Program-made: the position numbers and the translations under genes
Shown: positions 4,497 through 22,268 of the stretch, piece after piece
Layout: each line of letters begins with the position of its first letter
Numbering within the stretch: position 1 is the stretch's first letter
The notes under the pieces: generated by a model
What the model saw: the letters and a program-made list of their open reading frames with translations, nothing else
Databases searched by the model: none
What the model was told of the DNA's origin: nothing
Source of the DNA: Rhodoligotrophos appendicifer
Lineage (GTDB): Bacteria > Pseudomonadota > Alphaproteobacteria > Rhizobiales > Im1
NCBI RefSeq assembly: GCF_007474605.1
Contig: NZ_VHKL01000006.1
Span: forward strand, 1-64,000
Direction: 5' to 3'
DNA length: 64,000 bases

Positions 4497-6056
4497 TCAG
4501 GTCAGCGAATCCGGTAACACGGCTTTTCGGCTGGTCATGAAGGCCTGCAGCGCCTCATCAATACCGGGATCAAGAGCCGGGGCTTGATACTCCTTGAGCA
4601 TGCGTTTGTAACTGACGTTGGCGCGCTGAGCGGCATCTTTCTCGCCCTCCGCGAGCCATTGCTCAAAGGAGTTATTGTCCGCGATTGATGAGCGGTAAAA
4701 GGCCGTTTCGAAATTTGCCTGCGTATGGGCGCAACCAAGGAAGTGGCTTCCAGGCCCAACGTCGCGAATGGCATCCATGGCTTGCCCATTTTCCGATAAG
4801 TCAACGCCTTCAGCGAAGCGTTGCATCATACCAAGCTGATCTGCATCGATGATGAATTTCTCATAGGAGGAGACCAGTCCACCTTCTAACCATCCTGCTG
4901 CGTGGAGAACAAAGTTGACTCCTGCATAGAGGGTTGGGATCAGGGTTTGGGTGCTCTCGTGCGCGGCTTGAGCATCCGGGACTTTAGAGGCACAGAGGGA
5001 GCCGCCGGACCGAAAAGGGATGCCCAAGCGCCGAGCGAGCTGAGCCGCTCCATAGAGAACGTGGGAAGGCTCGGGCGATCCGAAAGTCGGCGCCCCCGAC
5101 TGCATGGATATCGAACTGGCGAAGGTACCGAATACGACGGGTGCCCCCGGCCGGCACAATTGGGAGAACGCGGCTCCGGCCATGGCCTCGGCCAGGATCG
5201 TCGTCAACGTTCCGATAACCGTCACCGGTGACATCGCCCCGGCCAGGATGAACGGTGAGATTATGGTGGCCTGATTGTTCCTCGCATAAACCTTGAGTGC
5301 ACCCAGCATCGTCGAATCGAAGACTAAGGGTGAGTTGGCGTTGATCAAGTTGATCAGGACGCAGTTCTGGTCGACAAAATCCGCACCAAACAGAAGTTTC
5401 GCCATTTCGACTGAATCTTCGGCCCGCTCTGGCGCAGTAACTGATCCCATGAAGGGCTTATCCGAATAGCGGATATGTGAATACACCATATCCAGATGCC
5501 GCTTGTGCACGGGCACATCGACCGGTTCGCAGACGGTGCCTCCCGAATGGTGCATTGCCGGGGCCAAATAAGCGAGTTTTACGAAGTTCCGAAAGTCCTC
5601 CAACGTGGCATAGCGGCGGCCTTCGTCGAGATTTCGAATAAAGGGTGGGCCGTACACGGGTGCAAAGACCGTGTTCTTTCCCCCGATAACCACATTGCGC
5701 TCGGGGTTGCGCGCATATTGTATGAACTCTCTCGGTGCCAATTTCAGGAGCTCACGGCACAGTCCATTTGGAAAGTGAACCCGTTCACCTTTCACATCGG
5801 CTCCGGCATCCCGCCACATCTGTAAGGCCTCGGGATCTTCCCTGAAGTCGACACCGATTTCTTCAAGGACAACGTCCGCATTTCGCTCGATGATCTGGAG
5901 ACCCTCTTCACTCAAGGTCTCGTAAAGAGGGATGTTTCGCGAAATGTTTTTGAGGCTTGGTAAGGCGCCACCCGAACGGCGTTGGCGCCTTTCGGCTGCT
6001 CCTCCGCCGCGCCGGGAATGACGATCGGTGGGTTCACTGGGGGTAACTTCGGTCAT
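4497..6056 (-). CDS. MttB-superfamily corrinoid methyltransferase, first paralogue (no pyrrolysine)
   Basis: This 519-residue protein belongs to the trimethylamine methyltransferase (MttB) superfamily, TIM-barrel enzymes that move a methyl group from a tertiary or quaternary amine to the Co(I) form of a corrinoid protein. The frame is open throughout with no internal amber codon, so it belongs to the non-pyrrolysine branch that includes the glycine betaine enzyme MtgB of Desulfitobacterium. Family-like stretches include RNPERNVVIGG near residue 120, SPFILAGAMSPVTVIG in the middle and LHAAGWLEGGL near residue 385. The first about 35 residues are rich in Arg and Gly and look disordered. ATG 6056 has GAGG 7 nt upstream. 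It heads a minus-strand series with an amidase and a substrate-binding protein. The substrate cannot be assigned; it differs clearly from the paralogue at 10,645-12,207. Confidence 0.88.
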   Translation of the reverse strand: MTEVTPSEPTDRHSRRGGGAAERRQRRSGGALPSLKNISRNIPLYETLSEEGLQIIERNADVVLEEIGVDFREDPEALQMWRDAGADVKGERVHFPNGLCRELLKLAPREFIQYARNPERNVVIGGKNTVFAPVYGPPFIRNLDEGRRYATLEDFRNFVKLAYLAPAMHHSGGTVCEPVDVPVHKRHLDMVYSHIRYSDKPFMGSVTAPERAEDSVEMAKLLFGADFVDQNCVLINLINANSPLVFDSTMLGALKVYARNNQATIISPFILAGAMSPVTVIGTLTTILAEAMAGAAFSQLCRPGAPVVFGTFASSISMQSGAPTFGSPEPSHVLYGAAQLARRLGIPFRSGGSLCASKVPDAQAAHESTQTLIPTLYAGVNFVLHAAGWLEGGLVSSYEKFIIDADQLGMMQRFAEGVDLSENGQAMDAIRDVGPGSHFLGCAHTQANFETAFYRSSIADNNSFEQWLAEGEKDAAQRANVSYKRMLKEYQAPALDPGIDEALQAFMTSRKAVLPDSLT

Positions 6057-6259
6057 GCTTCGACCTCGGAATGACTTTCAGCCTTAACTAGCGTCGAATG
6101 AGAGGGCTGACCGGCCCTGAAACGTCAACCGATGCACCATCAGCGACGCGCACCTCGAGCGCCGCGCTCCAAGCATCGTTAACCACCATCTGGGGTTGTA
6201 GTCGCCGTATCCCAATGACATATTGGACACATTGAGTTTTTCATTTTAGGACCTTTGCC

Positions 6260-6982
6260 ATGACGCCCAATCCCTCATTTCTTTTGCCAGCTGATCAGAG
6301 TTCGGACCCCGCCGCCCTCTCGGCGGGAAAATCTGTTCACAGCTTGGGCCCGGTACAACTTGTCTTGGGCGCGACTGTGGATGCGCCGACGGCATCCACC
6401 CGAGAATTCGGTCCTTCTCATACGGTTTCGGAGAAATGGACAGCGGGGTCACTGGTGCTGAACAACTCGCAGAGCGATGAACTGCAAGTGTTCAAACACG
6501 ATGGCGGCTTCAGCATTACGGGCCGGGTCGACGGCGGTCCCATTACGATCAACCTTTCCGGCGAAGGCATAAGCGGTATCGAGATCATCCAGTACGGTCC
6601 GTCGGTAATTGCACAGCTTCGGGGCGAATGGGCCGGAACAAAGTATGAGGCTAACACTGCCGGGACGCCCGAGGGAGCTCGCTACAACGGCGACGGCTAC
6701 ACTCCTTTTGATAAGCTCAACATTGAGGTTGTCGCCCAAGAAAATGGCACCTCATTGGCACAATCTATGAGCATTCTCGTGCCTCCGACAGAGGACCGGA
6801 TGGACCCTTCTTCTGTATTCTCGGCCACCCACGGGGGAGCCATACTGCAGATTTGCCCGCCGATGAATTCCGGCGAGCTGGCTCACATCGCTGACACTAG
6901 CGATTTATCGGCTTCCGAAAACATCGCATCCGCTGGAGGCAGGGGAGGTACAGCCATGGCCGAAGGCGATTTCCTACTTTAG
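6260..6982 (+). CDS. Hypothetical protein, 240 aa
   Basis: I do not recognise this protein. It is 240 residues long, has no signal peptide or membrane segment, and is rich in Gly, Ser and Thr with alternating polar and hydrophobic residues in the middle (roughly 80-160), which suggests beta structure. The C-terminus is low in complexity (GGRGGTAMAEGDFLL). A short acidic-hydrophobic end of this kind would be compatible with type I secretion, but no glycine-aspartate repeats or transporter genes are present. ATG 6260 starts shortly after an AT-rich stretch (about 6,225-6,250) that could hold its promoter. It lies divergently from mttB (203 nt apart) and upstream of the plus-strand methyl-transfer genes, so it may share their regulation. 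Coding is supported by length and a codon pattern like that of its neighbours. Confidence 0.6.
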   Translation: MTPNPSFLLPADQSSDPAALSAGKSVHSLGPVQLVLGATVDAPTASTREFGPSHTVSEKWTAGSLVLNNSQSDELQVFKHDGGFSITGRVDGGPITINLSGEGISGIEIIQYGPSVIAQLRGEWAGTKYEANTAGTPEGARYNGDGYTPFDKLNIEVVAQENGTSLAQSMSILVPPTEDRMDPSSVFSATHGGAILQICPPMNSGELAHIADTSDLSASENIASAGGRGGTAMAEGDFLL

Positions 6983-7108
6983 GCCTTCCCTAGGGCCTGT
7001 GTCGCTTTCAGATGACCGCACGTCGGAGGAATACGCGTTTGCGTTTGAATACGCCCCCATACCTGCTTTGGAAACCTATGTGCGTCACATGCCGGTGAGA
7101 GGCGTTCG

Positions 7109-7414
7109 ATGGCCGACCTGATCGTTGTTTACTGGCGGGATATCCCCGCCCAGGTGATCGTCAAGGCGGGACGTAAAACTGAAAAGCGGCAGCTCTCTGA
7201 CAAGTTTCAGGAAGCCATCGATATGGCAGCGATGCGAAGCGGAGCCGCCGGAACCGATGCGTATCTGGAGGAGTGGCGCCGCGCCGCGCCGCAACAGGTG
7301 GGTGACGACCTGGTCCTCGAGGCTGATAAGGCCGCAGCCGGTTTCGAGGCCGCCTATGACAGGACACTGATTAAGACACTCATCGATAACGGCGGCTGGG
7401 CTGAGCCTCGCTGA
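7109..7414 (+). CDS. 'Virulence factor' family protein (PF13769-like), 101 aa
   Basis: This small soluble protein matches from memory the family named 'virulence factor', whose members begin with a pattern like VYWRDIPAQVIVK followed by a basic KRQL segment and an AYLEEWRR helix; all three are present here (residues 6-18, 28-31 and about 50-57). The name is historical and the biochemical role is unknown. In alphaproteobacteria such genes often sit beside MttB-family and corrinoid genes, as here: it is 33 nt upstream of the pterin-binding methyltransferase on the same strand and probably cotranscribed with it. ATG 7109 follows a modest GGTGAGAGG sequence. I infer an accessory role in the methyl-transfer pathway rather than virulence. 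Confidence 0.75.
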   Translation: MADLIVVYWRDIPAQVIVKAGRKTEKRQLSDKFQEAIDMAAMRSGAAGTDAYLEEWRRAAPQQVGDDLVLEADKAAAGFEAAYDRTLIKTLIDNGGWAEPR

Positions 7415-7447
7415 TGTAAATCTATTGGCGCCATTCCGGAGATCTAA

Positions 7448-8386
7448 ATGACAGAGACGATTCTTGCTTCGGCGACCAAGGAAATTGTGATCGGGTTCGA
7501 TCGCCCCTTCTGTGTGATCGGAGAGCGTATTAACCCGACGGGGCGCAAAAAGCTGGCCGCGGAAATGAAGGCTGGCGACTATTCGACCGTGGAGCGGGAT
7601 GCCCTTGCCCAAGTGCAGGCGGGCGCGACGATGCTCGATGTCAACGCGGGCATACCCTTGGCGGACGAGCCCAGGATCTTGGCGGAAGCGATACAGCTCG
7701 TGCAAAGCCTCGTCGACGTGCCCCTCTCCATCGATAGCTCCATCATCGACGCTTTGGAGGCGGGCCTGGCCGTCTACAAGGGGCGCCCTCTCGTCAACTC
7801 GGTGACCGGAGAAGACGAAAGCTTGGACCGCGTATTGCCGCTCATCAAGAAATATGATTGTGCAGTGGTTGCCATATCCAACGATGAAACGGGCATCTCG
7901 GAAGACCCCAATGTACGTTTCGAGGTCGCCAGGAAGATCGTCAATCGCGCCTCAGACTATGGAATCAAGCCTCAGGACGTGGTCGTTGATCCTCTCGTCA
8001 TGCCGATTGGCGCCATGGGCACAGCCGGCCGCCAGGTTTTCGCGCTGCTGCGTCGGCTTAAGGACGAGTTAAAGGTAAATACCACGTGTGGCGCCTCTAA
8101 CATTTCCTTTGGGCTGCCGAACCGACGCCTGCTGAACGGTCATTTTTTGTCCATGGCGTCCTCCAATGGGATGACATCCGCCATTATGAATCCTCTCCAT
8201 GACGAGGACATGCACGCCATCATGGCGGCCAATGTCCTCAATGGAGTGGATCGCGACTGTCGGGCCTGGGTGCGCAAGTTTCGCGACCCCATACCCGAAG
8301 CGGTGACGGGGGCAGACGTCACGCCGGAAAGTGAATCCGATGCACGCCGTCGCGACCGTGAAAATCGTCGGCGCAGGCGTCTCTGA
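7448..8386 (+). CDS. Methyltetrahydrofolate:corrinoid methyltransferase (pterin-binding fold, AcsE/MtgA type)
   Basis: The 312-residue product has the dihydropteroate-synthase-like TIM barrel of methyltetrahydrofolate-corrinoid methyltransferases. Recognisable motifs are VIGERINPTGR near residue 22, MLDVNAGIP near 62 (the Asp and Asn that hold the pterin), PLSIDS near 95 and PLVNSVTGE near 118. Known relatives move a methyl group between the corrinoid protein and tetrahydrofolate; MtgA takes it from methyl-corrinoid to THF during glycine betaine demethylation. Here it would accept the methyl groups that the MttB paralogues put on the corrinoid protein. The last about 20 residues are strongly basic (DARRRDRENRRRRRL), which is unusual for the family. 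The next gene, the corrinoid activator, begins 29 nt downstream. Confidence 0.88.
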   Translation: MTETILASATKEIVIGFDRPFCVIGERINPTGRKKLAAEMKAGDYSTVERDALAQVQAGATMLDVNAGIPLADEPRILAEAIQLVQSLVDVPLSIDSSIIDALEAGLAVYKGRPLVNSVTGEDESLDRVLPLIKKYDCAVVAISNDETGISEDPNVRFEVARKIVNRASDYGIKPQDVVVDPLVMPIGAMGTAGRQVFALLRRLKDELKVNTTCGASNISFGLPNRRLLNGHFLSMASSNGMTSAIMNPLHDEDMHAIMAANVLNGVDRDCRAWVRKFRDPIPEAVTGADVTPESESDARRRDRENRRRRRL

Positions 8387-8415
8387 CGGCACACGTACCT
8401 GGAGTGAAAAAAAGT

Positions 8416-10485
8416 ATGAGCGTCGAAGCAGTGCTGGCGAACGCCTCGGCGAACACGGAAGAAGAAGCCGCGGACGAGGCCCTGATTGTCTTCACGCCTT
8501 CAGGCAAACGGGGTCGGTTTCCGATTGGCACGCCGGTACTTCAAGCGGCGCGTGCCCTTGGCGTGGACATTGACAGCGTCTGCGGTGGCCGAGCCATTTG
8601 CGGGCGCTGTCAGGTTCAGCTCTCGGAGGGCTCGTTCGCCAAGCACGGTTTGACCTCACGGTCCGACCATCTGACCCCGGTTTCGGCAACCGAACAGCGA
8701 TATGATGAAAAGCGCGGCCTCAAGCAGGGGCGCCGACTTTCTTGTCAGGTAAAACTTCTTGGCGACGTGGTGATTGACGTCCCTGCCGACAGCCAGGTCC
8801 ATAAACAAGTGGTTCGTAAGCGCGCCGAGGTCCGCGCCATCGAACTCGATCCGGTGACGCGACTTTATTATGTCGAGGTGGTCGAGCCAGACATGCATGC
8901 CCCCACGGGCGATCTCGAGCGTCTCTATACGGCGCTGCGGGAGCAATGGAACATTGCGGATGCCTACGCCGACCTTCGCACGATTCAACGCCTGCAGAAA
9001 GCTCTTCGGGAGGGCGACTGGAAGGTCACGGTCGCGGTTTATCACGGCGCCATTCGCAGCCGGAACCGCGTAGTTGCCGTGTGGCCACGGTTCCATGACA
9101 GGATTTACGGAGTCGCCATTGATATCGGCTCCACGACCATCGCGGCGCATCTGTGCGACCTGGCAACGGGCGATGTCATCGCCTCAGCGGGGCTCATGAA
9201 TCCCCAAATCAGGTTCGGCGAAGATCTCATGAGCCGGGTCTCCTATGTCATGATGAACCCGGGCGGCGACGTGGAGATGACGGCCGCGGTGCGTGACGCT
9301 TTGAATACGTTGATCGGACAGGTCGCGGCCGAAGCGGGCATTGAACGCACCAACATCGTCGAAGGGGTCTTTGTCGGCAATCCTGTCATGCACCACCTCC
9401 TGCTTGGGATCGACCCGATCGAACTGGGCGGAGCCCCTTTTGCCCTTGCGACCTCCACCTCGCAGACGCTATGGGCGAGTGAACTGGACGTGAGGATGCA
9501 TCCCGATGCACGCGTTTACATCCTTCCCTGCATCGCCGGTCACGTGGGAGCGGATGCGGCCGCTGTTGTGTTGTCCGAGGGTCCCTATCTCCAGGACGAG
9601 AACTGGCTAATAGTCGACGTCGGGACCAATGCGGAGATTGTGCTCGGAAACCGACATCGGTTGCTCGCCTGCTCCTCCCCCACGGGTCCAGCCTTTGAGG
9701 GCGCCCAGATTTCATCTGGCCAGCGGGCGGCCCCGGGAGCGATCGAACGCGTCCGCATCGACCCCTCAACCTTGGAGCCCCGCTACAAGGTCATCGGCAG
9801 CGATCTCTGGTCTGACGATCCCGCCTTCTCCGATGCGACCGCGTCCCTCGGCATCTCGGGCATATGCGGCTCCGGCATCATCGAAGCCATCGCCGAGATG
9901 TTTCTGGCAGGAATAGTCACCTCCGACGGCATGATTGACGGCAGCTTGGCGTCGGCGACGTCTCGCATCCAGCCCAACGGCCGGACATTCACCTATCTGC
10001 TTCGCGCAGGGGAGCCGGAAATCCGGGTTACGCAGAACGACATCCGGCAGATCCAGCTCGCCAAAGCTGCACTCTACGCCGGCGCACGCCTGCTGATGGA
10101 CCATCTTGAGATTGACGCCGTCGACCGCATCACTCTCGCCGGCGCCTTTGGCAGCCATATTGACGTGAAGCACGCCATGGTCCTGGGCATGATCCCCGAT
10201 TGCCCGTTGAACAAAGTGTCTTCCGCCGGCAACGCTGCCGGAACAGGCGCCCGCATTGCCCTCCTCAACGGCAAGGCTCGGCGAGAGATCGAGGACGTTG
10301 TCACCCGAATAGAGAAGATCGAGACCGCCATCGAGCCGAAGTTCCAGGAGCACTTCGTCAGTGCCATGGCCTTTCCTCACAAGACGGCGCTCTATCCCCA
10401 TCTCGCCCAGGTCGTCACTCTGCCTGAACAGAAGACTTCGGACGATGGTTCAGCCCGCCAGGGGCGGCGGCGGCGGCATCGCTAA
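8416..10485 (+). CDS. ASKHA-domain ferredoxin-like protein; reductive activator of corrinoid enzymes (RACE/RamA type)
   Basis: This 689-residue protein reactivates corrinoid proteins that have oxidised to Co(II), using ATP and an iron-sulfur cluster to restore Co(I). The N-terminal 2Fe-2S ferredoxin domain shows C56-x5-C62-x2-C65 and a fourth Cys near 110 in RRLSC. A linker follows, then the actin-like ATPase (ASKHA) domain from about 230, with the phosphate-binding VAIDIGSTTIAAHL and later DVGTNAEIVL and LAGAFGSHI. I chose ATG 8416 because GGAG lies 11 nt upstream; an in-frame GTG at 8404 overlaps that site. It directly follows the pterin-binding methyltransferase and is probably in one operon with it. 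A basic Arg-rich tail ends the protein. It converges with the second mttB gene 160 nt away. Confidence 0.9.
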   Translation: MSVEAVLANASANTEEEAADEALIVFTPSGKRGRFPIGTPVLQAARALGVDIDSVCGGRAICGRCQVQLSEGSFAKHGLTSRSDHLTPVSATEQRYDEKRGLKQGRRLSCQVKLLGDVVIDVPADSQVHKQVVRKRAEVRAIELDPVTRLYYVEVVEPDMHAPTGDLERLYTALREQWNIADAYADLRTIQRLQKALREGDWKVTVAVYHGAIRSRNRVVAVWPRFHDRIYGVAIDIGSTTIAAHLCDLATGDVIASAGLMNPQIRFGEDLMSRVSYVMMNPGGDVEMTAAVRDALNTLIGQVAAEAGIERTNIVEGVFVGNPVMHHLLLGIDPIELGGAPFALATSTSQTLWASELDVRMHPDARVYILPCIAGHVGADAAAVVLSEGPYLQDENWLIVDVGTNAEIVLGNRHRLLACSSPTGPAFEGAQISSGQRAAPGAIERVRIDPSTLEPRYKVIGSDLWSDDPAFSDATASLGISGICGSGIIEAIAEMFLAGIVTSDGMIDGSLASATSRIQPNGRTFTYLLRAGEPEIRVTQNDIRQIQLAKAALYAGARLLMDHLEIDAVDRITLAGAFGSHIDVKHAMVLGMIPDCPLNKVSSAGNAAGTGARIALLNGKARREIEDVVTRIEKIETAIEPKFQEHFVSAMAFPHKTALYPHLAQVVTLPEQKTSDDGSARQGRRRRHR

Positions 10486-10644
10486 CGACAGGCGCTGCCA
10501 GGCCGAAAGATGCCGCTTCCTAGGCACCTTCCTTCATGTTGATAAGATCGCCATTTGCGACATGAACGTCTCTGTATAACCGGTCATTCCCGGGGCGACC
10601 TGCGAGAGCGCTTCACGAGCTCTGCCTTCGAAGCCCTGTGTCCC

Positions 10645-12207
10645 TCAAAAATCCGTTGGTGCGCCACCCTCTCGCTTTCGACGTTCTACAAACGCGTCGA
10701 CCTCCTCCAGAATCCCTGGATCGATCGGTGGCGGAACGTAATCTGCAAGCGCTTGCTTGAACACGCGGTTTGCCTTCTGTGCCGCATCGGGGCTTCCGGC
10801 CTCGACCCAGCTTTGGTGATTGCGCCAATCAGAGAGAATGGGAGAGTAGAAGGCCGTCCGGTATCTTTCCTGGGTGTGCTGTGCCCCGAAGAAGTGCCCT
10901 CCGGGCCCGACCTCCCGCATGGCGTCCAGGGCAAGTTCCGCATCGCCACTGATGACCGGCTTCAGAAATTCGGTCACCATCTGAAGGAGGTCGACATCGA
11001 GAATGAATTTCTCGAACGAGGCGACGAGGCCGCCTTCCATCCATCCTGCGGCGTGCTTGATGAGATTGCCGCCTCCCATAACCGCTCCCCATAGCGAAAA
11101 GACGGACTCATAAGCTGCCTGCGCGTCCACTGTATTGGCAGCGCAGGTATTGGACGTGCGATAGGGCAGCTTATAGCGTCGCGCCAGCTGTCCGCCGATA
11201 ATGGCCGTCTTCATGTATTCGGGCGTGCCGAAGGCCGGCGCACCCGACTTCATGTCCACGTTCGAGGTAAAGGCGCCGTAGATCACAGGTGCGCCTTTTC
11301 GCACGATCTGCGTCATTGCAATGCCAGCCAAGGCCTCGGCATTCTGTTCGACGATGGCCCCGGCCAGCGTCACCGGTGCCATTGCCCCCGCAAGTGTGAA
11401 GGGTGTGATGCAGATCGCCTGGCCTTTTGCGGACATTTCCAGGATCCCGCCGAGCATTGGAGAATCGAGCCGGAGCGGCGAAGAGGTGTTGATGATTGAG
11501 ACCATAGACGGCTCTGACGCGAACTGCTCGTGTGATACGCCGCGCCCGAGCCGCCAGATTTCCATCCCGTCGACGATGCGCTCCTTCCCGAGTGAATAGG
11601 CATGGCCGACCTTGTCGCAAAGCACGATCTGAGCCCGCAAAGCATCCAGATGGCGGACGGAAGGATGCATATCGACGGGCTCGACGGGATAACCACCGAC
11701 CATGTGGATGGTGTTGAAATACTGTGCCAGCTTGAGGAGATTGCAGTAATCCTCCGTGTTGCCGATCCGTCTTCCTCGATCCATGTCTGACGCATTTGGC
11801 GGACTGGAGATGCAGGAGAAGACGATCGAATTCCCCCCCATTTCGATGTTCCGCTCTGGATTTCTGGCATGCAGCGTAAACCGCTCGGGTGCTGTCTTGA
11901 TCAGCTCCTCGATCAGGGCGGGATCGAACCTGACCCGCTCTGAATTTGGATCTACATCTGCACCCGCACGTCGTAGCAGGTCACGCGCCTCCGGCAGAAG
12001 GAAGTCCATCCCGATCTCCTTCAGGACGTCCAGCGAGGCACGGTGAATAGCCTCCACCTGGTCATCGGAGATGATGTGCATCGGCGCCACGGTGAGCTTC
12101 GGCTGCTGCCAGGGAAGCTGTGGCACGGCCTGTCCGGTGACATCGCTGGCCTCACGGTGCCGCCGACCTGACCGCTGACGTTTCGTAGCCTCTGCCGCTT
12201 CTTGCAT
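10645..12207 (-). CDS. MttB-superfamily corrinoid methyltransferase, second paralogue (no pyrrolysine)
   Basis: This is a second member of the trimethylamine methyltransferase superfamily, 520 residues from ATG 12207. That start has AGGA 10 nt upstream; two earlier in-frame starts (12243 and 12300) lack a ribosome site. There is no internal amber codon. It shares with the first paralogue the motifs RNPERNI, ITPFTLAGAMAPVTLAG and KHAAGWMEGGLVASFEKFI, but differs widely between them, so it probably acts on another substrate or methylation state. It is predicted to be a TIM barrel that methylates the shared corrinoid protein. It is convergent with the corrinoid activator gene and divergent from a DMT exporter gene. 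The N-terminus is basic and low in complexity for about 30 residues. Confidence 0.88.
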   Translation of the reverse strand: MQEAAEATKRQRSGRRHREASDVTGQAVPQLPWQQPKLTVAPMHIISDDQVEAIHRASLDVLKEIGMDFLLPEARDLLRRAGADVDPNSERVRFDPALIEELIKTAPERFTLHARNPERNIEMGGNSIVFSCISSPPNASDMDRGRRIGNTEDYCNLLKLAQYFNTIHMVGGYPVEPVDMHPSVRHLDALRAQIVLCDKVGHAYSLGKERIVDGMEIWRLGRGVSHEQFASEPSMVSIINTSSPLRLDSPMLGGILEMSAKGQAICITPFTLAGAMAPVTLAGAIVEQNAEALAGIAMTQIVRKGAPVIYGAFTSNVDMKSGAPAFGTPEYMKTAIIGGQLARRYKLPYRTSNTCAANTVDAQAAYESVFSLWGAVMGGGNLIKHAAGWMEGGLVASFEKFILDVDLLQMVTEFLKPVISGDAELALDAMREVGPGGHFFGAQHTQERYRTAFYSPILSDWRNHQSWVEAGSPDAAQKANRVFKQALADYVPPPIDPGILEEVDAFVERRKREGGAPTDF

Positions 12208-12487
12208 GGCGCTGCTTTCCTGTTTGCTCGGGCCTGAGTTCATACACCCACAGCGGTGAGCTGGCTTGCGCAGGCTCTTTGCAAAGCGGTCCTGCGTCAT
12301 TCGGATTGATGCACGGACGCAGCGTGCGAAGCCACAGCGATTCGAGCACCATCTGCAAAATTGCTGCGCCGAAGCAATCGACCCGTGGAATTCACAACCC
12401 AGCTATGTAGAGCCCGTCCTGCTTTCCACTTGGCCGTTCCTTGACTTCAGGCTATGGCTCATCGCATCAAGAGCAAATGGCCGCACC

Positions 12488-13441
12488 GTGACCGACTTAG
12501 CTACAGTAAAGATAGCCGGTGCGACGACCACTCCCGACACTCATCTTGTCGGTGGATTACGCCGGTCCCCCCGCAAAGCCATCCTTTTTGCTCTTGCCGC
12601 CATATTTTGCCTCTGCGTATTGGATGTGCTCGTCAAATGGCTTGCGGCGAGCTATTCGATCCCTCAGATAATCTTCCTCCGCTACATCGGCGGCTTGGCT
12701 CTCGCTCTGGTCGTCGCACAGCGCAGCGGCGGGTTCGCACAGCTGCGCACGAACCGAATATCCGGGCATCTCACACGGTCGCTCTTCAACCTGATCACGA
12801 TGCTTTTGTTTTACTATGCTCTGCGCATGCTGCCTCTGGCGGATGTGGTCGCCATTGCATTTGCAGCCCCGCTTTTCATGACGCTTCTGTCCATTCTTTT
12901 TCTCGGCGAGAAAGTGGGTCCTGCGCGCTGGCTGGCTTTGGCCATCGGAATGGTCGGGGTAATTGTCATCCTGCGACCTGGCGATGGAAGCTTGGGGCTC
13001 GGAGGAGCGCTCGCTTTGTGCTCGGCGCTTTTCTACGCCCTCACTCAAATCTCTGCGCGGCAGCTCAGCAGCACGGAATCGAGCGCAACGATTCTGTTTT
13101 ATTACAGTGCCGGTGTCCTGGTGATAACGATGTGCCTTCTGCCCTGGAATTGGCAGATGCCGAGCCTCTTTGACTGGGGGTTGTTCGTTCTCCTCTCTAT
13201 CTTCGGCAGCTATGGACAACTTTTTCTCAACCAAGCCTGTCGTTACGGTGAGGTCTCCATGTTAGCCTCCATTGAATATACCGGTCTCTTCTGGGCTGTC
13301 CTGTTCGGCTTCCTTGTCTGGGGTGACATTCCAACCTGGTCTGTCGTCATCGGGGCGGGAATCATCGTCGCCAGCACTCTCTTCATCACCCGTCGCGAGA
13401 TGATGCGGAAGGACATTCCCCTTAGGGAGTCCGCGGGGTGA
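12488..13441 (+). CDS. DMT-superfamily (EamA) transporter
   Basis: This is an inner-membrane protein of the drug/metabolite transporter superfamily with two EamA repeats and about ten hydrophobic segments, starting near AILFALAAIFCLCVLDVLVKW. Typical family sequence includes the end of the first repeat, LGEKVGPARWLALAIGMVGVIVILRPG. Members usually export amino acids or related small metabolites. The start is uncertain: GTG 12488 gives a normal length of 317 residues, whereas the frame stays open to 12266 through non-membrane sequence that looks non-coding. The stop overlaps the start of the next gene by 4 nt (GTGA), so the two are translationally coupled. It is divergent from mttB2 and may export a product of the methyl-transfer pathway, but its position is the only evidence. 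Confidence 0.8.
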   Translation: MTDLATVKIAGATTTPDTHLVGGLRRSPRKAILFALAAIFCLCVLDVLVKWLAASYSIPQIIFLRYIGGLALALVVAQRSGGFAQLRTNRISGHLTRSLFNLITMLLFYYALRMLPLADVVAIAFAAPLFMTLLSILFLGEKVGPARWLALAIGMVGVIVILRPGDGSLGLGGALALCSALFYALTQISARQLSSTESSATILFYYSAGVLVITMCLLPWNWQMPSLFDWGLFVLLSIFGSYGQLFLNQACRYGEVSMLASIEYTGLFWAVLFGFLVWGDIPTWSVVIGAGIIVASTLFITRREMMRKDIPLRESAG

Positions 13442-14127
13442 AGACGATATGGTCGGAGATCCAAGCCTCGGGCTTTGTGGCTTTGAGCTGGTTTCTGCCG
13501 ACTCCTGAGGATTTTCTTCCCGAATGGGAGGACAAGATCGCAACCGTGGTCTTGATCGGCAATGCTGGCCCCGGCATGTGGCAGCGCTTTATTTCCGATC
13601 GAGAGCCCGACAAGGACCTTCTGGACGACTGGACCCGGGACAAGGCCTCATCCTTGGCACGGGGCCTCGGGGCCCGCGCCGTATTCCCCTTTGACCGTCC
13701 TTATCTGCCGTTCCAGCGTTGGGCGGCCAAGGGAGGCAATGCGTTTTCCTCTCCGCTGGGTTTGACGATCCACCCCCTCTACGGGCTGTGGCATGCCTAC
13801 CGCGCTGCCCTCCTCTTCTCCCGGCCGCTGTCTCTGCCGGAGCCAGTCCGGCAAGACCACCCTTGCGAAAGCTGCCCCACGCGGCCTTGCCTGTCCGCCT
13901 GTCCGGTCGGCGCCTTCACCGGCACCGATTATGATGTGGAGGGCTGCGCCCGGCACGTGACAGGCCCTCAGGGTCAGCGCTGCTATGGGGGATGCCTCGC
14001 GCGCCGGGCCTGCCCTGTGGGTCGCGACTTCACCTATGCGCCTTCCCAGGCTAGGTTTCATATGCGCCATTTCATACAGGCCCGCGATCCGAATTGGGAG
14101 ATGACGAGTGATGGTCTCGAAGCGTGA
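13438..14127 (+). CDS. Iron-sulfur protein with eight cysteines, QueG-like C-terminal ferredoxin region
   Basis: The 229-residue protein begins at a GTG that overlaps the stop of the transporter gene. The C-terminal third has eight Cys in two groups, C143-x2-C146-x4-C151-x3-C155-P and C170, C182-x3-C186-x5-C192-P, consistent with two [4Fe-4S] clusters arranged as in the tail of epoxyqueuosine reductase (QueG). The N-terminal 130 residues resemble no domain I can name; in QueG, RdhA and MMACHC this position is a cobalamin-binding nitroreductase-like fold, but I cannot see a cobalamin motif. Given the corrinoid genes around it, a role in electron supply or corrinoid handling is possible but inferred. 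It overlaps the following GFA gene by 17 nt. Confidence 0.7.
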   Translation: MKTIWSEIQASGFVALSWFLPTPEDFLPEWEDKIATVVLIGNAGPGMWQRFISDREPDKDLLDDWTRDKASSLARGLGARAVFPFDRPYLPFQRWAAKGGNAFSSPLGLTIHPLYGLWHAYRAALLFSRPLSLPEPVRQDHPCESCPTRPCLSACPVGAFTGTDYDVEGCARHVTGPQGQRCYGGCLARRACPVGRDFTYAPSQARFHMRHFIQARDPNWEMTSDGLEA

Positions 14128-14584
14128 AGGCTCCTGTCTCTGCGGAGCGGTCCAGTTCACGGCGGGCGAGCCTCTGCGCCCCATCGTCTACTGCCACTGT
14201 CGTCAATGTCGGAAGCAAACCGGCCACTTTCTCGCGTCGACCGCGACAGCGTTGGATCGTTTTCAACTCACATGTGACCAGGGGCTCGCCTGGTATCGGG
14301 CCAGCGAGATCGCCACACGCGGCTTCTGCAGAATCTGCGGCTCGACCCTGTTCTGGCAGCGCGACGGAGCCGACGAGATCTCCATTGCCGCAGGCACCTT
14401 GGATGACAGCACCGGCCTCATCGAGGACGGGCACATTTTTTGCGCGGAGAAGGGCGGGTATTACGAGCCGGCCGGGGGCAAGTATCAGGTTCCGGGCTCA
14501 GACCGGCCGGCGACCCCTCAGCCGGAGGTCCTCGCCCTCAGGAAACCATCCATGTCGCCATATCCGGTGAAGCGGCGTTCATAG
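14111..14584 (+). CDS. GFA-family zinc-binding protein
   Basis: This 157-residue protein carries the Cys pattern of the glutathione-dependent formaldehyde-activating (GFA/CENP-V) family: CLC at 9-11, CHCRQC at 28-33 and CRIC near 79-82, which bind zinc. The founding member Gfa accelerates addition of glutathione to formaldehyde, but many GFA paralogues have other or unknown roles. Formaldehyde handling would make sense near demethylation genes; that is an inference. ATG 14111 is preferred over the adjoining GTG 14108. The first 17 nt lie inside the upstream iron-sulfur gene, indicating coupling. The last about 67 nt overlap the 3' end of the convergent DUF1638 gene; the zinc domain is complete before that overlap. 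Confidence 0.82.
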   Translation: MVSKREGSCLCGAVQFTAGEPLRPIVYCHCRQCRKQTGHFLASTATALDRFQLTCDQGLAWYRASEIATRGFCRICGSTLFWQRDGADEISIAAGTLDDSTGLIEDGHIFCAEKGGYYEPAGGKYQVPGSDRPATPQPEVLALRKPSMSPYPVKRRS

Positions 14585-15216
14585 CCGAGCCCCAGTCGCT
14601 TCGCCGCAGTCTCGGCTCTGGCGTCCAAGCCGGGATCGTTGACCTGGGCGAGATAAATGACCTTCTCGTAATTGCCAAAATAGAGCGGCAGAAGCTCAGG
14701 ATGGCGGTCGAGGCCCAGGCCCTCCCAAACCAGCTTGTCAAAGTGCCGGGCCAGATAATCGGTGAGATAGAAGCTTCTGAAGTCGGCGTCCTCGCGGCCG
14801 GCAAAGAGGTCATTGCCGGTGAAGAAGGAGTAGCAGTGCGGACCTGGGATCCGCTCGACGCCTTCTTCTTCCACCACACGATCCAAAAGGCCGCCGGTAC
14901 CACAGTCACCATAGAGCACGAAGATATTCTCGTAAGCACCTCGAGCTTCGCGGATTTTTTCGCGGACCGCCTCAGGGATCATCTCTGGATGATTGTGCAG
15001 CTTAGCGGGCAGGCACGCGAGATCGAACATCGCCCACTGATTGGCCTCGATGAGCGTGACGATTTCAGTGGCAAGGGCACCACAGGCGATCAGCAGGAGA
15101 CGACCCTCCCCTCTCCTGAAGCCGAACGTCTCTACCGTCTCCAAATTCATAGACTGACTATAGGGAGGATCGACGTCTGGCGAAAGGGCGCAGGCCTCGA
15201 CAAGGGCGTCAACCAT
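14518..15216 (-). CDS. DUF1638 domain protein
   Basis: This is a 232-residue protein of the DUF1638 family, recognised from LIACGALATEI near residue 43, the YGDCGTGG segment near 102, the PHCYSFFTG segment and a C-terminal ERRFTGYGDM. The function is unknown; the conserved Cys and His residues (CG, DCG, HC) could bind a metal or cofactor. Such genes recur beside MttB-family methyltransferases and corrinoid proteins, and here one lies between the two mttB genes and the corrinoid protein gene. I therefore regard it as part of the methyl-transfer system. ATG 15216 has GAGGA 11 nt upstream; ATG 15150 is an alternative. Its 3' end overlaps the GFA gene on the other strand. Confidence 0.85.
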   Translation of the reverse strand: MVDALVEACALSPDVDPPYSQSMNLETVETFGFRRGEGRLLLIACGALATEIVTLIEANQWAMFDLACLPAKLHNHPEMIPEAVREKIREARGAYENIFVLYGDCGTGGLLDRVVEEEGVERIPGPHCYSFFTGNDLFAGREDADFRSFYLTDYLARHFDKLVWEGLGLDRHPELLPLYFGNYEKVIYLAQVNDPGLDARAETAAKRLGLGYERRFTGYGDMDGFLRARTSG

Positions 15217-15252
15217 TCACTAACCATTCCTCTTAAAATTTGTTTTGGTGTG

Positions 15253-15281
15253 TTTCAATTTATCTCTCGTTATGATTGAAA
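15253..15281. promoter_or_regulatory. Inverted repeat in AT-rich leader
   Basis: TTTCAAT and its complement ATTGAAA are separated by 15 nt, giving 22 nt between repeat centres. The site lies in the AT-rich gap between the divergent DUF1638 gene and the 15,289 gene. The spacing of about two helical turns is compatible with an operator, but no regulator is encoded nearby. Confidence 0.3.
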
Positions 15282-15288
15282 TCGCATA

Positions 15289-15678
15289 GTGAAGGCCGAA
15301 GATGTCATTGGGTGCGTCATGGCCTGGTCGCTGATGAAAACTTTCTCCAAACGGAACCGACCTCGGCCGGCCCGGACACTTGAAGTCGAGGAGTTTGAAG
15401 CCCCTGAACGGCGGTGGGATGGCAGTTCTGCCCAAATAAGACTCCGAAGAGAGCTCAAGTTAATTCGCGTCCCAAATACCAAATTATCCTGGATTTCAAT
15501 GACAATATCCGATGATATTGCAGAGATAAAATCCGGCTCTCACAGTAATTTGGTTCATCATTTTCTTTCTGCAGAACACGTCAGTTATTTACTAGAGCAA
15601 CGAGGGTCTGATGTTTATATTCATCTATATTTAAATGCTGAGCGTGACAAATCGAGGACAAAATTTACTATAGTTTGA
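15289..15678 (+). CDS. Hypothetical protein in AT-rich patch
   Basis: The frame encodes up to 129 residues; GTG 15289, ATG 15319 and ATG 15334 are all possible starts and none has a clear ribosome site. The C-terminal two thirds alternates charged and hydrophobic residues (IHLYLNAERDKSRTKFTIV) like a small beta-rich domain. No signal peptide or family is recognised. Base composition is clearly more AT-rich than the surrounding genes, especially after 15,440, and codon use differs to match, which suggests acquired sequence. The gene ends 33 nt before the first of two paralogous small glycine-rich protein genes and may be cotranscribed with them, possibly as a partner or protective protein; this is speculation from position. 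Confidence 0.5.
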   Translation: MKAEDVIGCVMAWSLMKTFSKRNRPRPARTLEVEEFEAPERRWDGSSAQIRLRRELKLIRVPNTKLSWISMTISDDIAEIKSGSHSNLVHHFLSAEHVSYLLEQRGSDVYIHLYLNAERDKSRTKFTIV

Positions 15679-15711
15679 ATTATTTTCATAAAATTTCATG
15701 AGGAGTAAGTT

Positions 15712-16092
15712 ATGAGCTTTATCGGAAGCGCGATCAGTGCTGTGGGTGGAGTTGTCGGCAGTATATTCGGCGGTGTCGCAAATGCTGTTGGCGAGGCAGT
15801 CGTTGACGTTGGCCATGTCGCCCAGGCAGTCGTCGACGTACCCGTCCATCTCGTAAAGCATGCGGGCGAGACCATATCGAGCTTGGGTAACGGCAATGAC
15901 CATAACAACAATCACAGTAACGATGGCCCCTATACGCCGTCGCCGCTCGCCGTTGATCCCGGAACCCAACCCGGAGCGGGCCACGGCCCGGCGATCTCTC
16001 CTGCCCCGACCCCCATCATGGATCATGGTCCGGGTCCAGCGGCCGATCAAAATGACGGAATGATCTACCACAGCGGCGACCACATGATGTGA
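15712..16092 (+). CDS. Small glycine-rich amphipathic protein, copy 1 of a tandem pair
   Basis: This 126-residue protein starts at ATG 15712 behind GAGGAGT. Residues 1-60 are rich in Gly, Ala and Val with small residues spaced like a glycine zipper (SAVGGVVGSIFGG), then comes an Asn/His stretch (65-71), a Pro/Gly-rich linker and an acidic end with DGMIYH near residue 115. The second protein 338 nt downstream shares the MSFI start, the glycine-rich helix, the Pro-rich linker and the DG-[ML]-IYH end, so the two are paralogues. I do not recognise the family. The N-terminal half could insert into or lie on a membrane; there is no classical cleavable signal peptide. A bacteriocin-like, holin-like or matrix protein are all conceivable, none shown. 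Confidence 0.65.
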   Translation: MSFIGSAISAVGGVVGSIFGGVANAVGEAVVDVGHVAQAVVDVPVHLVKHAGETISSLGNGNDHNNNHSNDGPYTPSPLAVDPGTQPGAGHGPAISPAPTPIMDHGPGPAADQNDGMIYHSGDHMM

Positions 16093-16429
16093 CACGAAGC
16101 CTCGATGATCGCCAAGATCTCCACGATCATTGAGGCTGATCTCCGGGTCTGAGGGATCGGGCTCGCCCTTTCTTTACCGTCCCTCGACAACCTACAAGCC
16201 CTTATCAACTGATACACACTCTAGGGTTGCAATCCTGCCCTTTCGGCGATATAGGAACGACGATCAGAGTCGGAGACTTAGGCCAACATCTGGGGAGGAG
16301 GCCGTCGTTTTATCAATGTCGGGCCCCTCCTTCCTGGAGGTCGCAATACTCATACAACAGCAAAAAAATTTTCTCTCTCCGACCCATTAGAAGAAATTCT
16401 ATTTTCCTATAATAATTCGAGGATTTGAA
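16093..16429 (+). other. Spacer between the two small glycine-rich protein genes
   Basis: This 337-nt gap holds no convincing gene; the one frame of 86 codons (16,130-16,390) has no ribosome site and low-complexity composition. It starts with an imperfect stem-loop, and its last 80 nt are strongly AT-rich (around 16,360-16,420), including TATAAT-like sequence (CCTATAATAATTC), so it probably carries a separate promoter for the second copy. No degenerate third copy of the small gene was seen. Confidence 0.4.
16099..16136 (+). terminator. Imperfect stem-loop after small gene copy 1
   Basis: GCCTCGATGATCG (16,099-16,111) pairs with CGATCATTGAGGC (16,124-16,136) with one mismatch around a 12-nt loop. 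It begins 7 nt after the stop codon at 16,092. There is no U tract, so it could be a factor-dependent end or a transcript-stabilising hairpin rather than a true intrinsic terminator. Confidence 0.35.
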
Positions 16430-16741
16430 ATGAGTTTCATAGCAGATACTTTTAACGGAATAGCAAATATCGCAGCGAATCTTGTCGGCGGTGCTGTGGG
16501 TATATTGGGTGGCGCGGTCACGGGTGTTGGAAAAGTGGCGGATGCCATTGTCCATATCCCAATCGATGCGTCCAAAATTGCGGGCGATACTCTCACCAAT
16601 ATCGGTGATGAGCTGCGCGGCAACCATCATCCTCCGGCAGCCGGCGGACCGACCCCGGTCCCGCAACCGCCGGCTGAGAGCGATGACGGACTGATTTACC
16701 ACGCCACCAGCTCCAGCTCGATCACCGGTCACGTATCGTGA
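16430..16741 (+). CDS. Small glycine-rich amphipathic protein, copy 2 of a tandem pair
   Basis: This 103-residue paralogue of the preceding small protein starts at ATG 16430, 6 nt after GAGGA. It has the same layout: MSFI start, Gly/Ala/Val-rich segment with GGAVGILGGAVTG spacing (residues 20-35), a polar stretch, a Pro-rich linker (PTPVPQPP) and an acidic end with DGLIYH near residue 87, followed by a Ser-rich tail. The linker is shorter than in copy 1, and the sequences diverge outside the common features, so this is an old duplication. No family is recognised. A GC-rich hairpin follows the gene. Confidence 0.65.
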   Translation: MSFIADTFNGIANIAANLVGGAVGILGGAVTGVGKVADAIVHIPIDASKIAGDTLTNIGDELRGNHHPPAAGGPTPVPQPPAESDDGLIYHATSSSSITGHVS

Positions 16742-16758
16742 CGACCCATGAGATCTAG

Positions 16759-16787
16759 GGGCCGGCCGCTGACGCGCCGGCCCGTTT
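16759..16787 (+). terminator. Intrinsic terminator-like hairpin after small gene copy 2
   Basis: An 8-bp perfect stem, GGGCCGGC with GCCGGCCC, encloses a 9-nt loop (CGCTGACGC) and is followed by GTTTG. It lies 17 nt after the stop at 16,741, between the small gene and the convergent corrinoid protein gene, and could stop transcription from the plus strand. Confidence 0.5.
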
Positions 16788-16877
16788 GACAAGGGGGGAT
16801 ACCTCGCAGCCGATCATTTGGCGGCCGCGCGGTGGGATCCGGCGTTGTCGTCTAAAGGCGAAGCCGGCGAGAAAGGC

Positions 16878-17579
16878 TCAGGCGCTGGCACGCACATTGT
16901 GGCGGCGCTTGATCATCTCGCGCGCCGTTTCGACCGCCACGGCCGCATCCCGGCAATAGGCATCAGCGCCGATCGCCGTTGCGAACTCCTCGTTCAACGG
17001 CGCGCCTCCCACAAGCACAATGTAATCGTCGCGGATGCCCTTCTCCTTCAGCGCATCGATGACGACTTTCATATAGGGCATGGTTGTCGTCAGGAGCGCC
17101 GACATGCCCAGAATATCCGGCTGATGTTCCTCGATGGCCGCGAGATACTTCTCGACGGGGTTGTTGATTCCGAGATCGATCACATCGAATCCCGCCCCCT
17201 CCATCATCATCCCGACGAGGTTCTTGCCGATGTCGTGGATATCGCCCTTGACGGTGCCGATCACCATCTTTCCCTGCTTTGGCGCTCCTGTCTCCGCCAG
17301 CAGCGGGCGGAGAATGAACATTCCCGCCTTCATGGCATTGGCGGCAAGCAGAACTTCCGGCACGAACAGGATGCCGTCACGAAAGTCCACCCCGACGATG
17401 CGCATGCCCTCGACCAGCGCCTCGGTGAGGACGCGATAGGGCGTCCAACCCCGCCCGAGCAGGATGTTGACGGCAACCTCGATTTCCTCCTTGAGGCCGT
17501 CATAGAGATCGTCATGCATCTGCTGAACGAGCTCATCATCGTCCAAGGAATTGAGATCGAGTTCTTCTTCGTTGCTCAT
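16878..17579 (-). CDS. Corrinoid (cobalamin-binding) methyl-carrier protein, MttC/MtbC type
   Basis: This 233-residue carrier holds the cobalamin that shuttles methyl groups. A helical cap domain (about residues 10-95) with ILLGRGWTPYRVLTEALVEGM precedes the Rossmann-like B12 domain. That domain has the signature D113-x-H115-x2-G118 in KGDIHDIGKN, where His115 would replace the lower ligand of cobalt, then GMSALLTTTM near 162 and LVGGAPLNEEFA near 190. ATG 17579 has GGAG 6 nt upstream; an in-frame GTG four codons earlier is less likely. It is the only corrinoid protein gene in the window, so it probably serves both MttB paralogues and the pterin-binding methyltransferase. It is transcribed separately, with a 634-nt upstream region. 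Confidence 0.92.
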   Translation of the reverse strand: MSNEEELDLNSLDDDELVQQMHDDLYDGLKEEIEVAVNILLGRGWTPYRVLTEALVEGMRIVGVDFRDGILFVPEVLLAANAMKAGMFILRPLLAETGAPKQGKMVIGTVKGDIHDIGKNLVGMMMEGAGFDVIDLGINNPVEKYLAAIEEHQPDILGMSALLTTTMPYMKVVIDALKEKGIRDDYIVLVGGAPLNEEFATAIGADAYCRDAAVAVETAREMIKRRHNVRASA

Positions 17580-18213
17580 CCCACTCTCCACAAATCGTCA
17601 AGGCGGACACCCGCAGAATTGTCTTATCGACAACAGCTGGAAAGGCCGACGCCTCTTCTCCCGTTGCCGCAATCATTCCTGGCGCGACCGCAGCTCCAGC
17701 TATGGCATGTCCCCAGGTCCATGCATCGCACCCAGCGACCGGAACACGCTCGAAATCGACATGGCGCTCCAAAACGCACTGACATGCCTCTGCGCCTGCC
17801 GCCATCGTGACCGATGCGGGTTGTGAGGGCCGTGGAGCGCCGAGCGGACGCGTATGGTTTTAGTATATGTAGCGACCGATCGGCGCTCCACGCGTGCCGT
17901 TCCAGCCGACGCCTCTTCGCGATGCCTAAGCTGGTCTACCCAGCGGTCCGCCCCGTGAGGGATGGCCGTGCAGAACGCGATATGACGTGAGCCTTGTCCT
18001 GTTCCCGTTCGTTACACGGGATGACAGAAAGCCCCGCATCTCCGCGCATGCCGGCCGGTCCGGACAAGCCCCCCACGCGGCGAAGACAAGCGCAGTATGA
18101 CACGCGCTGGAGGCGCGGGGATAAGTCGGCGGGTGATGTAGCAGTTTCGGGTGCGAGGAGATCGAACCTCATCGATCCCGGCGCGTTCCCTCTGCCTTTT
18201 CCGTCATCCTCTC
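17580..18213 (-). other. Long intergenic region upstream of the corrinoid protein gene
   Basis: About 630 nt without a convincing gene. It holds a 13-bp inverted repeat with an AT-rich centre (17,831-17,892) and fragments similar to the CGGGATGAC palindromic intergenic repeat (around 18,015-18,025). It probably contains the promoter of the corrinoid protein gene and the 3' region of the methyltransferase gene. I looked for a cobalamin riboswitch box and did not find one. Confidence 0.45.
17831..17892. repeat. 13-bp perfect inverted repeat with AT-rich centre
   Basis: CGTGGAGCGCCGA (17,831-17,843) is repeated in inverted form at 17,880-17,892, separated by 36 nt whose middle is AT-rich (GGTTTTAGTATATG). 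ACGCGT also occurs in both flanks. It lies about 250 nt upstream of the corrinoid protein gene. It could be a long hairpin in a leader transcript, a pair of operator half-sites around a promoter, or the relic ends of a small mobile element. Confidence 0.5.
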
Positions 18214-19227
18214 TTAAGACGGTGCGCGGCGACGGCGGCGTTCGCTGGCTTCCGACCGGGCGGGAGCTGCACCATGAGCGAGGGCGGAGACTTCGCCGAG
18301 CTTTGCGGTGATCTCCTCGACGCTGGGACGGTCGCCTTTCTTATGCGCCTCCAGGGCCGAGCGCATGGCCGCGAGATGCTTTGGCTCGGTGCCACAACAG
18401 CCTCCGATGATGCGTGCGCCTGCATCGAGCGCCAAGCAGGCATAATCCGCCATGATTTCGGGAGTGCCGCTGTAATGGATATGACCACCGACGAACTGGG
18501 GTATGCCGCAATTGCCTTTGGCCACGACGACCGCATCGGGTCGTGCGGCGGTGATGCCGAGAACGGTTGCCACCAGCTCAGCGGCACCCGTCCCGCAATT
18601 GGCGCCGATACCCGCGGGCTGCTTGTCCAAGGCGGCTGTCATGGCGCCGAAAGCCGCAGGCGTGATTCCCATCATGGTTCGACCATTGGTATCGAAACTC
18701 ATGGTGGTCACAATCGGCAGTCCGGCCTGCGAAGCTCCTTCCATCGCCGCCTTGAGCTCCTCTTCCGACGAGATCGTCTCTATCCACAAGACGTCTGCAC
18801 CGCCCTCCGCCAGAGCCCTTGCCTGTTCAGCGAACGCGTCCGCTCCATCGGCAATGGAGAGGGGCCCCACGGGCTCGAAGATTTCTCCCGTGGGTCCCAT
18901 GGACCCGGCCACCAGCACAACACGACCGGCAGCATTTGCCTCTTCGCGAGCCAGCTCTGCTGCGCGCTTGTTGAGCTCATGAACCCTGTTTTGCGCATCA
19001 TGCAACTTCAGGCGGTAACGATTGCCGCCAAAGGAATTGGTCAGAATGAGATCCGCCCCGGCCTCGATGAACTGTCGGTGCAGCGATCGGACACGATCGG
19101 GATGATCGACATTCCAGAACTCCGGGGCGTCGCCCGACTGCAGGCCCATTTGGAAGTAGTTGGTGCCCGTAGCCCCGTCGGCCAGCAGCCATGGCCGCGA
19201 GGCGAGGAGATCGAGGAACTTCGACAT
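18214..19227 (-). CDS. Betaine/methyl donor:homocysteine S-methyltransferase (BHMT-like)
   Basis: This 337-residue TIM-barrel enzyme belongs to the zinc-dependent homocysteine S-methyltransferase family. It begins with LLADGATGTNYFQMG, typical of the family, and carries the zinc ligands in GANCGTG (about residue 205) and GGCCGT (about 271). Such enzymes pass a methyl group to homocysteine to form methionine; the best known donors are glycine betaine and S-methylmethionine. ATG 19227 has GGAG 7 nt upstream, so the longer frame to 19344 is not used. The C-terminal 30 residues are basic and low in complexity. It sits beyond the corrinoid protein gene on the same strand. It could use betaine directly, providing a second route for the substrate of the MttB system; the donor is not determined. 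Confidence 0.85.
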   Translation of the reverse strand: MSKFLDLLASRPWLLADGATGTNYFQMGLQSGDAPEFWNVDHPDRVRSLHRQFIEAGADLILTNSFGGNRYRLKLHDAQNRVHELNKRAAELAREEANAAGRVVLVAGSMGPTGEIFEPVGPLSIADGADAFAEQARALAEGGADVLWIETISSEEELKAAMEGASQAGLPIVTTMSFDTNGRTMMGITPAAFGAMTAALDKQPAGIGANCGTGAAELVATVLGITAARPDAVVVAKGNCGIPQFVGGHIHYSGTPEIMADYACLALDAGARIIGGCCGTEPKHLAAMRSALEAHKKGDRPSVEEITAKLGEVSALAHGAAPARSEASERRRRRAPS

Positions 19228-19480
19228 GTGGCAACTCCATGGAATTCCCGTTGAGGAGCCACAAAATGACCCTGGATGCAACTCTGATCCGCCGCAGCGC
19301 AGCATATACCACCCCTGGACCGCACGCGGGTTTGGAGCTACCACAATGACGCGAGCCGGCCGGTACTCTATCGGGACGATGGCATGACGATGGTGCTGGA
19401 ATCACATCGCCTGCCTGCTTCTCGGCCGCCCGATCCAAGCTCCTGCCCGGCCCGTGACAAGGGGTTTTTGGAGACAGAAC

Positions 19481-20599: not shown

Positions 20600-20627
20600 C
20601 GCCAGCGGCCGCTTTCCGCGTCTGCGA

Positions 20628-20720
20628 TCATCCCGGGGCTGCGCTGCTGCGAGCCTCGGGATCCGGTGGGTTCCTGCCGCACGAGATCCCGGCTCCGCGC
20701 TTCGCTCCGGCCGGGATGAC
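20628..20720. repeat. Palindromic intergenic repeat (CATCCCGG...CCGGGATG type)
   Basis: The spacer between ald and the convergent glutamine-synthetase-like gene starts with TCATCCCGG and ends with CCGGGATGA, and holds further inverted GGGATC/GATCCC pairs. Read on the minus strand it aligns with the repeat at 29,018 (GTCATCCCGGCCG, then AGCGC and CCGGGA). This is the kind of dispersed palindromic repeat common between genes in Hyphomicrobiales; it could also act as a bidirectional terminator here. Confidence 0.6.
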
Positions 20721-20731
20721 GGCAATGCCGT

Positions 20732-22084: not shown

Positions 22085-22268
22085 GGGAGAAAGCTCTTGT
22101 TGGATGAAGCCCCGTGATCGGCCCTGCTGCCGGTCTGACGCGACATTTGGGCTGCTCTGTGCGAAGGATAGGCCGGTTGCTTGACGAAAGGAACCGGCAT
22201 CTAAAGAATGGAGCCGGGCGGTCGCTGTCACGACCACCGTCCGCGGCGGAAATTTCAATTAGGGTATC

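Follow-up and report, generated by a model that had tools for sequence, protein, structure and literature searches.

A predicted MtgBCDE-type corrinoid methyl-transfer hub in the alphaproteobacterium Rhodoligotrophos appendicifer

Genes of the 4.5-19.2 kb region

The window analysed here is a 64,000-nucleotide stretch of Rhodoligotrophos appendicifer DNA (contig NZ_VHKL01000006.1, positions 1 to 64,000; RefSeq assembly GCF_007474605.1), and its 4.5-19.2 kb region carries a cluster of genes for corrinoid-dependent methyl transfer. Judged by its sequences, the region is assigned to the MtgBCDE set of aerobic proteobacteria, in which a glycine betaine (GB) demethylase is combined with a split methionine synthase, and it very probably encodes such a system, built as a hub. 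All families that an earlier note on this DNA had named are present as intact open reading frames (ORFs), with matches far above curated cut-offs, and the note was right to describe a cluster for corrinoid methyl transfer whose chemistry resembles that of MtgB/MtgA; relatives of the organism include aerobes.

Two MttB-family genes lie in the region, both on the minus strand: MttB1 (4497..6056; PF06253, E 1.9e-233), a predicted GB:corrinoid methyltransferase of the Sinorhizobium meliloti/Azoarcus type (also referred to as MtgB), and MttB2 (10645..12300; PF06253, E 2.9e-200). Since neither frame has an in-frame stop, neither is the pyrrolysine enzyme, as the earlier note had held; both proteins also score well below the TIGR02369 cut-off, and a pyrrolysine MttB identity was ruled out. 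The corrinoid protein MtgC (16878..17591, minus strand; PF02607 and PF02310) has the D-x-H-x-x-G motif as DIHDIG, and the predicted methyl-corrinoid/tetrahydrofolate methyltransferase MtgD (7448..8386, plus strand) matches the pterin-binding family PF00809 and, above its cut-off, NCBIfam PRK07535 (E 4e-111). A predicted RACo/RamA-type ATP-dependent reductive activator of the corrinoid, with an N-terminal 2Fe-2S domain, is encoded at 8404..10485 (plus strand; PF14574, PF17651, PF17650 and Fer2), and a DUF1638 protein at 14518..15216 (minus strand; PF07796, E 3e-27). The structure model of the latter is confident (pLDDT 86), yet a fold search of the PDB returned no significant match, and this search thus yields no mechanism. 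The homocysteine S-methyltransferase gene ('bmt', here MtgE; minus strand; PF02574, PRK07534 above cut-off) runs from 18214 to its ATG at 19227, with a GTG at 19344. It had been read as a BHMT-like enzyme; its cysteines (NCG and GGCC) are kept, it matches methionine synthase (1.2e-42) better than human BHMT (2.6e-17), and it is predicted to be a methionine-synthase module rather than a stand-alone betaine enzyme. Two further conserved members are a small 'virulence factor' protein (7109..7414, plus strand; PF13769, E 8e-22), for which a sequence search of the PDB gave no match, and an Fe-S protein with eight cysteines and a predicted QueG/MMACHC-like cobalamin-binding fold (13438..14127, plus strand).

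Work by others in relatives has established the function of MtgC and MtgD and the involvement of RamA and DUF1638. In the aerobe Ruegeria pomeroyi, mtgC and mtgD mutants lose growth on GB as well as methionine synthesis, and on betaine two PF06253 proteins (MtgB), RamA and DUF1638 go up in the proteome; the same gene set has also been mapped in S. meliloti (Mausz 2025, PMC12478193). In Price 2018 (PMC5764234), MtgC, MtgD, MtgE, RACo and DUF1638 are described as forming or supporting a split methionine synthase in Phaeobacter inhibens, and DUF1638 as needed for B12-dependent methionine synthesis in Phaeobacter. The earlier note's statements that the family roles are established mainly in anaerobes and that the substrate is not evident are therefore outdated, and the cluster as a whole is mostly explained already by the 2018 and 2025 work; what is added here concerns the clade of MttB2 and the Fe-S protein.

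What places the region in this set is an MtgB of family PF06253 that is not a pyrrolysine protein, a free-standing MtgC with the D-x-H-x-x-G motif, MtgD, an MtgE closer to MetH than to BHMT, and RamA/RACo together with DUF1638. All of these are shared with R. pomeroyi and P. inhibens, with the same predicted division of labour, but in R. appendicifer they lie mostly in one 15-kb locus, which includes two MttBs. Two features usual in the set are missing: there is no MetF2 beside MtgD, an arrangement that is common though not universal, and the genome has a full MetH, which most carriers lack as a tendency rather than by definition, the Hyphomicrobiales being a known exception. The MtgABC system of the anaerobe Desulfitobacterium hafniense likewise combines a non-pyrrolysine MttB (DSY3156 MtgB, PDB 2QNE; about 46% identical to MttB1) with a corrinoid protein and a folate methyltransferase, but no MtgE, DUF1638 or Fe-S partner has been reported there, and the MtgC of aerobes is phylogenetically distinct (Mausz 2025, PMC12478193).

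Conservation of the cluster and the two MttB clades

The surroundings of the closest MttB1 relatives were compared in 63 full-length loci from named alphaproteobacterial genomes, S. medicae included, counting genes within about 10 kb. MtgC is a neighbour of MttB1 in 59 of these and DUF1638 in 58; MtgD and RACo each occur in 57, the PF13769 and Fe-S proteins each in 56 and MtgE in 48, a degree of clustering far above what chance would give. In S. meliloti, which also has MetH, the annotated locus (SMc04325, 'bmt') contains the same genes in close synteny: the Fe-S gene comes straight after MttB, and bmt and an ATP-binding cassette (ABC) transporter gene for GB are close by. This locus differs in holding metF2/metF-C and a formyltransferase gene, where the window instead has MttB2, EamA and GFA genes and a rearranged order. 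Paracoccus aminovorans has the same gene neighbourhood, with no bmt in the stretch viewed. The record of S. meliloti Ak57 that carries bmt and the mtg locus (CP090106.1) is labelled plasmid pSymB, but at 3.7 Mb it is probably a mislabelled chromosome. Closer to R. appendicifer, two congeners (L146 and L147) retain the gene set, with MttB1 88% and 85% identical. That the cluster could be a relic or a redundant copy with no current function, as its overlap with MetH and the missing metF2 might suggest, is hard to reconcile with this conservation, with the intact ORFs throughout and with the kept cofactor motifs, and we regard it as very improbable.

The S. meliloti protein is 74% identical to MttB1, which scores 865.7 bits against PDB entry 4yyc and 439 bits against the GB methyltransferase (9yce/2qne). 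MttB1 shares with MtgB the motifs YG.P (YGPP in MttB1, YGAP in MtgB), GG.L and FVLH.AG, at the sites where the pyrrolysine enzyme has Gly110, Pyl334 and Tyr364. The tree, taken together with these motifs, groups MttB1 with MtgB over the pyrrolysine MttB, although MtgB itself falls outside both clades to which the window proteins belong. In the betaproteobacterium Azoarcus KH32C, the MttB1 orthologue (71% identical) has betA, betB, folD and the gene of a choline-binding ABC protein as its neighbours, and because of this choline-to-betaine context GB is the best guess for the substrate of MttB1. Against this reading stands the literature, in which we found no published substrate assay for any alphaproteobacterial MttB.

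MttB2 falls in another clade, with good support (99/98), and its pocket motifs are unlike those of MtgB (SSPP, SN-C and LIKHAAG). In its sister clade, a gene of DAO-FAO_M-GCV_T architecture, resembling dimethylglycine dehydrogenase (DMGDH), follows MttB in 11 of the 20 loci examined, which suggests a dimethylglycine-yielding betaine as a possible substrate of MttB2; the relatives nearest to the window protein have no such neighbour. Six loci holding the closest MttB2 relatives have a LysR-type regulator gene upstream; they also contain another MttB, which is only very distantly similar (22-25% identity).

The shared hub, its supply and its outlets

Genome-wide, five MttBs face one MtgC, one RACo and one DUF1638. 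MtgC is the only free-standing B12-binding_2 protein of its size in the genome, the other PF02607 matches being MetH and two other kinds of ORF. With five MttBs and single copies of these three partners, the cluster is a shared hub and not the self-contained pathway with its own import and output genes proposed in the earlier note, and several MttBs probably charge the one MtgC. Neither a quaternary-amine importer nor a dimethylglycine or sarcosine dehydrogenase was seen in the stretches that were scanned. The only import gene near the cluster encodes a peptide-type solute-binding protein (SBP_bac_5; 1136..2812, minus strand; PF00496, E 4e-63), a candidate import partner; in a handful of other genomes, a homologue lies next to MttB1 or MttB2. 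Between the gene of this solute-binding protein and MttB1 lies an amidase gene (2966..4420, minus strand; PF01425, PRK06170 above cut-off), which is kept beside MttB1 in the two congeners (72-73%) and whose link to the pathway is uncertain. A third MttB is found on contig C2 (L143:2468-12694) with genes for an OpuAC binding protein, an ABC ATPase (ProV), a permease and DMGDH-like proteins, the only run of betaine-importer and DMGDH genes seen beside an MttB in this genome; betaine import and the later demethylation steps are thus encoded elsewhere than in the window.

The C2 run bears on which enzyme handles GB, as its MttB, and not MttB1, could be the one that mainly acts on betaine. In a broader form of this alternative, MttB1 and MttB2 would act mainly on other substrates, such as proline betaine, carnitine, dimethylated amino acids or methylamines that the amidase would release from amide linkage, imported via the SBP_bac_5 protein, and the C2 MttB would be the true GB enzyme. 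The company that the C2 MttB keeps fits this, as do the solute-binding protein and amidase genes beside MttB1, the same type of transporter adjoining MttB2 in four other genera and the absence of MtgB-type pocket motifs from MttB2. Pointing the other way are the choline-to-betaine genes beside the Azoarcus orthologue, the position of the MttB1 orthologue as the MttB kept next to mtgC and bmt in S. meliloti, and the DMGDH genes beside the sister-clade orthologues of MttB2, which point to betaine or dimethylglycine; overall, the alternative appears doubtful, and we retain GB as the likely substrate of MttB1.

The outlets of the hub provide further points against the assignment. A full-length MetH is present, its activation domain included in a 1277-aa ORF about 16 kb from the C2 MttB, which makes MtgE dispensable for basic methionine synthesis. 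MetE is absent from the genome, and MetF has one clear copy, at C5. The metF2/metF-C pair known from S. meliloti and Paracoccus had no match in the window or in the two congeners, and the outlet through methyl-folate may therefore be weaker or of another kind. The gene content also invites the question of whether the cluster serves chiefly as a split methionine synthase, with demethylation secondary: five of its genes form or support the P. inhibens synthase (Price 2018), and here mtgE lies within the cluster. This is unlikely, given a MetH with its own activation domain, a hub shared by five MttBs and the response of R. pomeroyi to GB, under which MtgB, MtgC and MtgD rise and MtgE does not (Mausz 2025, PMC12478193). 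In the demethylating hub that we favour, MttB1 would demethylate a quaternary amine, most likely GB, and load the methyl group onto the Co(I) form of MtgC, from which MtgD would pass it to tetrahydrofolate for oxidation or use and MtgE to homocysteine, giving methionine. This one MtgC would also receive methyl groups from further methylated amines, by way of MttB2 and the three MttBs elsewhere.

An EamA transporter gene (12266..13441, plus strand; PF00892) is kept in the two congeners but was found in only one of the 63 loci elsewhere, and is probably a family-specific neighbour rather than a core member, whereas the GFA-family protein (14108..14584, plus strand; PF04828) is a recurrent but optional neighbour, present also in six other loci. 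A 240-aa ORF at 6260-6982 has no family match, nor do two similar-looking small ORFs between the DUF1638 and MtgC genes (15712-16092 and 16430-16741), which start with MSFI and are rich in Gly and Ala. An Rfam scan of the window for a B12 riboswitch gave no match. Directly after the mtg region, positions 19454-31752 hold genes of a polyamine/agmatine-type catabolism (AlaDH, two glutamine-synthetase-like proteins, a DAO oxidase, an agmatinase-like member of the arginase family, ABC transporter parts and a class-III aminotransferase), which we judge to be a separate neighbourhood from 19.4 kb on. They are followed at 32090-39485 by hopanoid synthesis genes, encoding squalene/phytoene synthases, DXS, an amine-oxidase-type FAD enzyme and a squalene-hopene cyclase.

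The Fe-S protein and its possible part in Co(I) reactivation

How Co(I) chemistry is kept going in air had been described in the earlier note as not evident; part of the answer already existed in RACo/RamA and DUF1638, the published parts for Co(I) maintenance, and the Fe-S gene is a further candidate. In the S. meliloti and Paracoccus records its product bears no annotation beyond 'ferredoxin' or hypothetical. The protein has about 230 amino acids, and its eight cysteines stand in near-invariant alignment columns, two of them missing from one homologue. The best sequence match is a weak one to QueG (E 0.0084), and 14 of 35 family members have a sub-threshold match to Pfam MMACHC. With an AlphaFold (AF2) model (pLDDT 77), Foldseek returned QueG (2.8e-5), MMACHC (6e-4) and reductive dehalogenases (RdhA; 0.016-0.1), so that the top fold matches are B12 proteins only, at TM-scores of only 0.44-0.52, which are a hint rather than proof of a QueG/MMACHC-like fold. 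QueG, MMACHC and reductive dehalogenases all bind cobalamin. Besides the tentatively predicted fold, the protein shares with QueG/MMACHC the HP.(Y/F)G.W motif region and has a QueG-like cysteine pattern that may serve two [4Fe-4S] clusters, but it is small, 15-18% identical and devoid of the remaining domains of QueG.

The gene is closely tied to MttB. It begins 18-500 bp past MttB1 in 49 of the 63 loci, and in family f60 it lies away from the mtg genes yet still co-occurs. Ignoring kinship, among 61 relatives the protein is found in 21 of 29 genomes with MttB and 1 of 32 others (Fisher 9e-9), and among 399 genomes of the phylum in 38 of 42 and 21 of 357, respectively; within the Alphaproteobacteria, the two occur together in 38 genomes (38 of the 40 MttB-positive ones) and either alone in 2 each, again with kinship ignored. 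A strict need for the protein is argued against by at least eight MttB genomes that lack it, by a distant subfamily (f81) that occurs without MttB, and by the methionine-fitness genes listed in the available part of Price 2018 (PMC5764234), which include no such Fe-S gene. We found no mention of the gene in the main text of Mausz 2025 or in the available part of Price 2018. On a plasmid of Methylibium petroleiphilum PM1 (L101:9872-10492), a distant homologue (32%) closes a run of genes for cobalamin synthesis (cobO, cbiB, cobQ, cobT and cobS) that has no MttB nearby.

On the basis of the model and this distribution, the Fe-S protein is a candidate for an extra cobalamin reductase or handling protein. 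Co(II) formed by slippage of MtgC would be re-reduced by the ATP-driven RACo/RamA activator along with DUF1638, and the Fe-S protein would probably deliver electrons to cobalamin or take part in its preparation. We tentatively suggest, while giving the idea somewhat less than an even chance, that it is the first member of a family, so far undescribed, of minimal cobalamin proteins of QueG/MMACHC-like type, which would reduce or prepare cobalamin for MtgC as a third part of aerobic corrinoid reactivation, next to RACo and DUF1638, and so let Co(I) methyl transfer run in air.

A puzzling cluster is now placed in a pathway widespread in soil and sea, with two of its readings corrected, from a BHMT to a methionine-synthase module and from a self-contained pathway to a shared hub. 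Two MttB clades have been told apart whose substrates can now be assayed, and the Fe-S protein is a testable candidate for how aerobes sustain Co(I) corrinoid chemistry.

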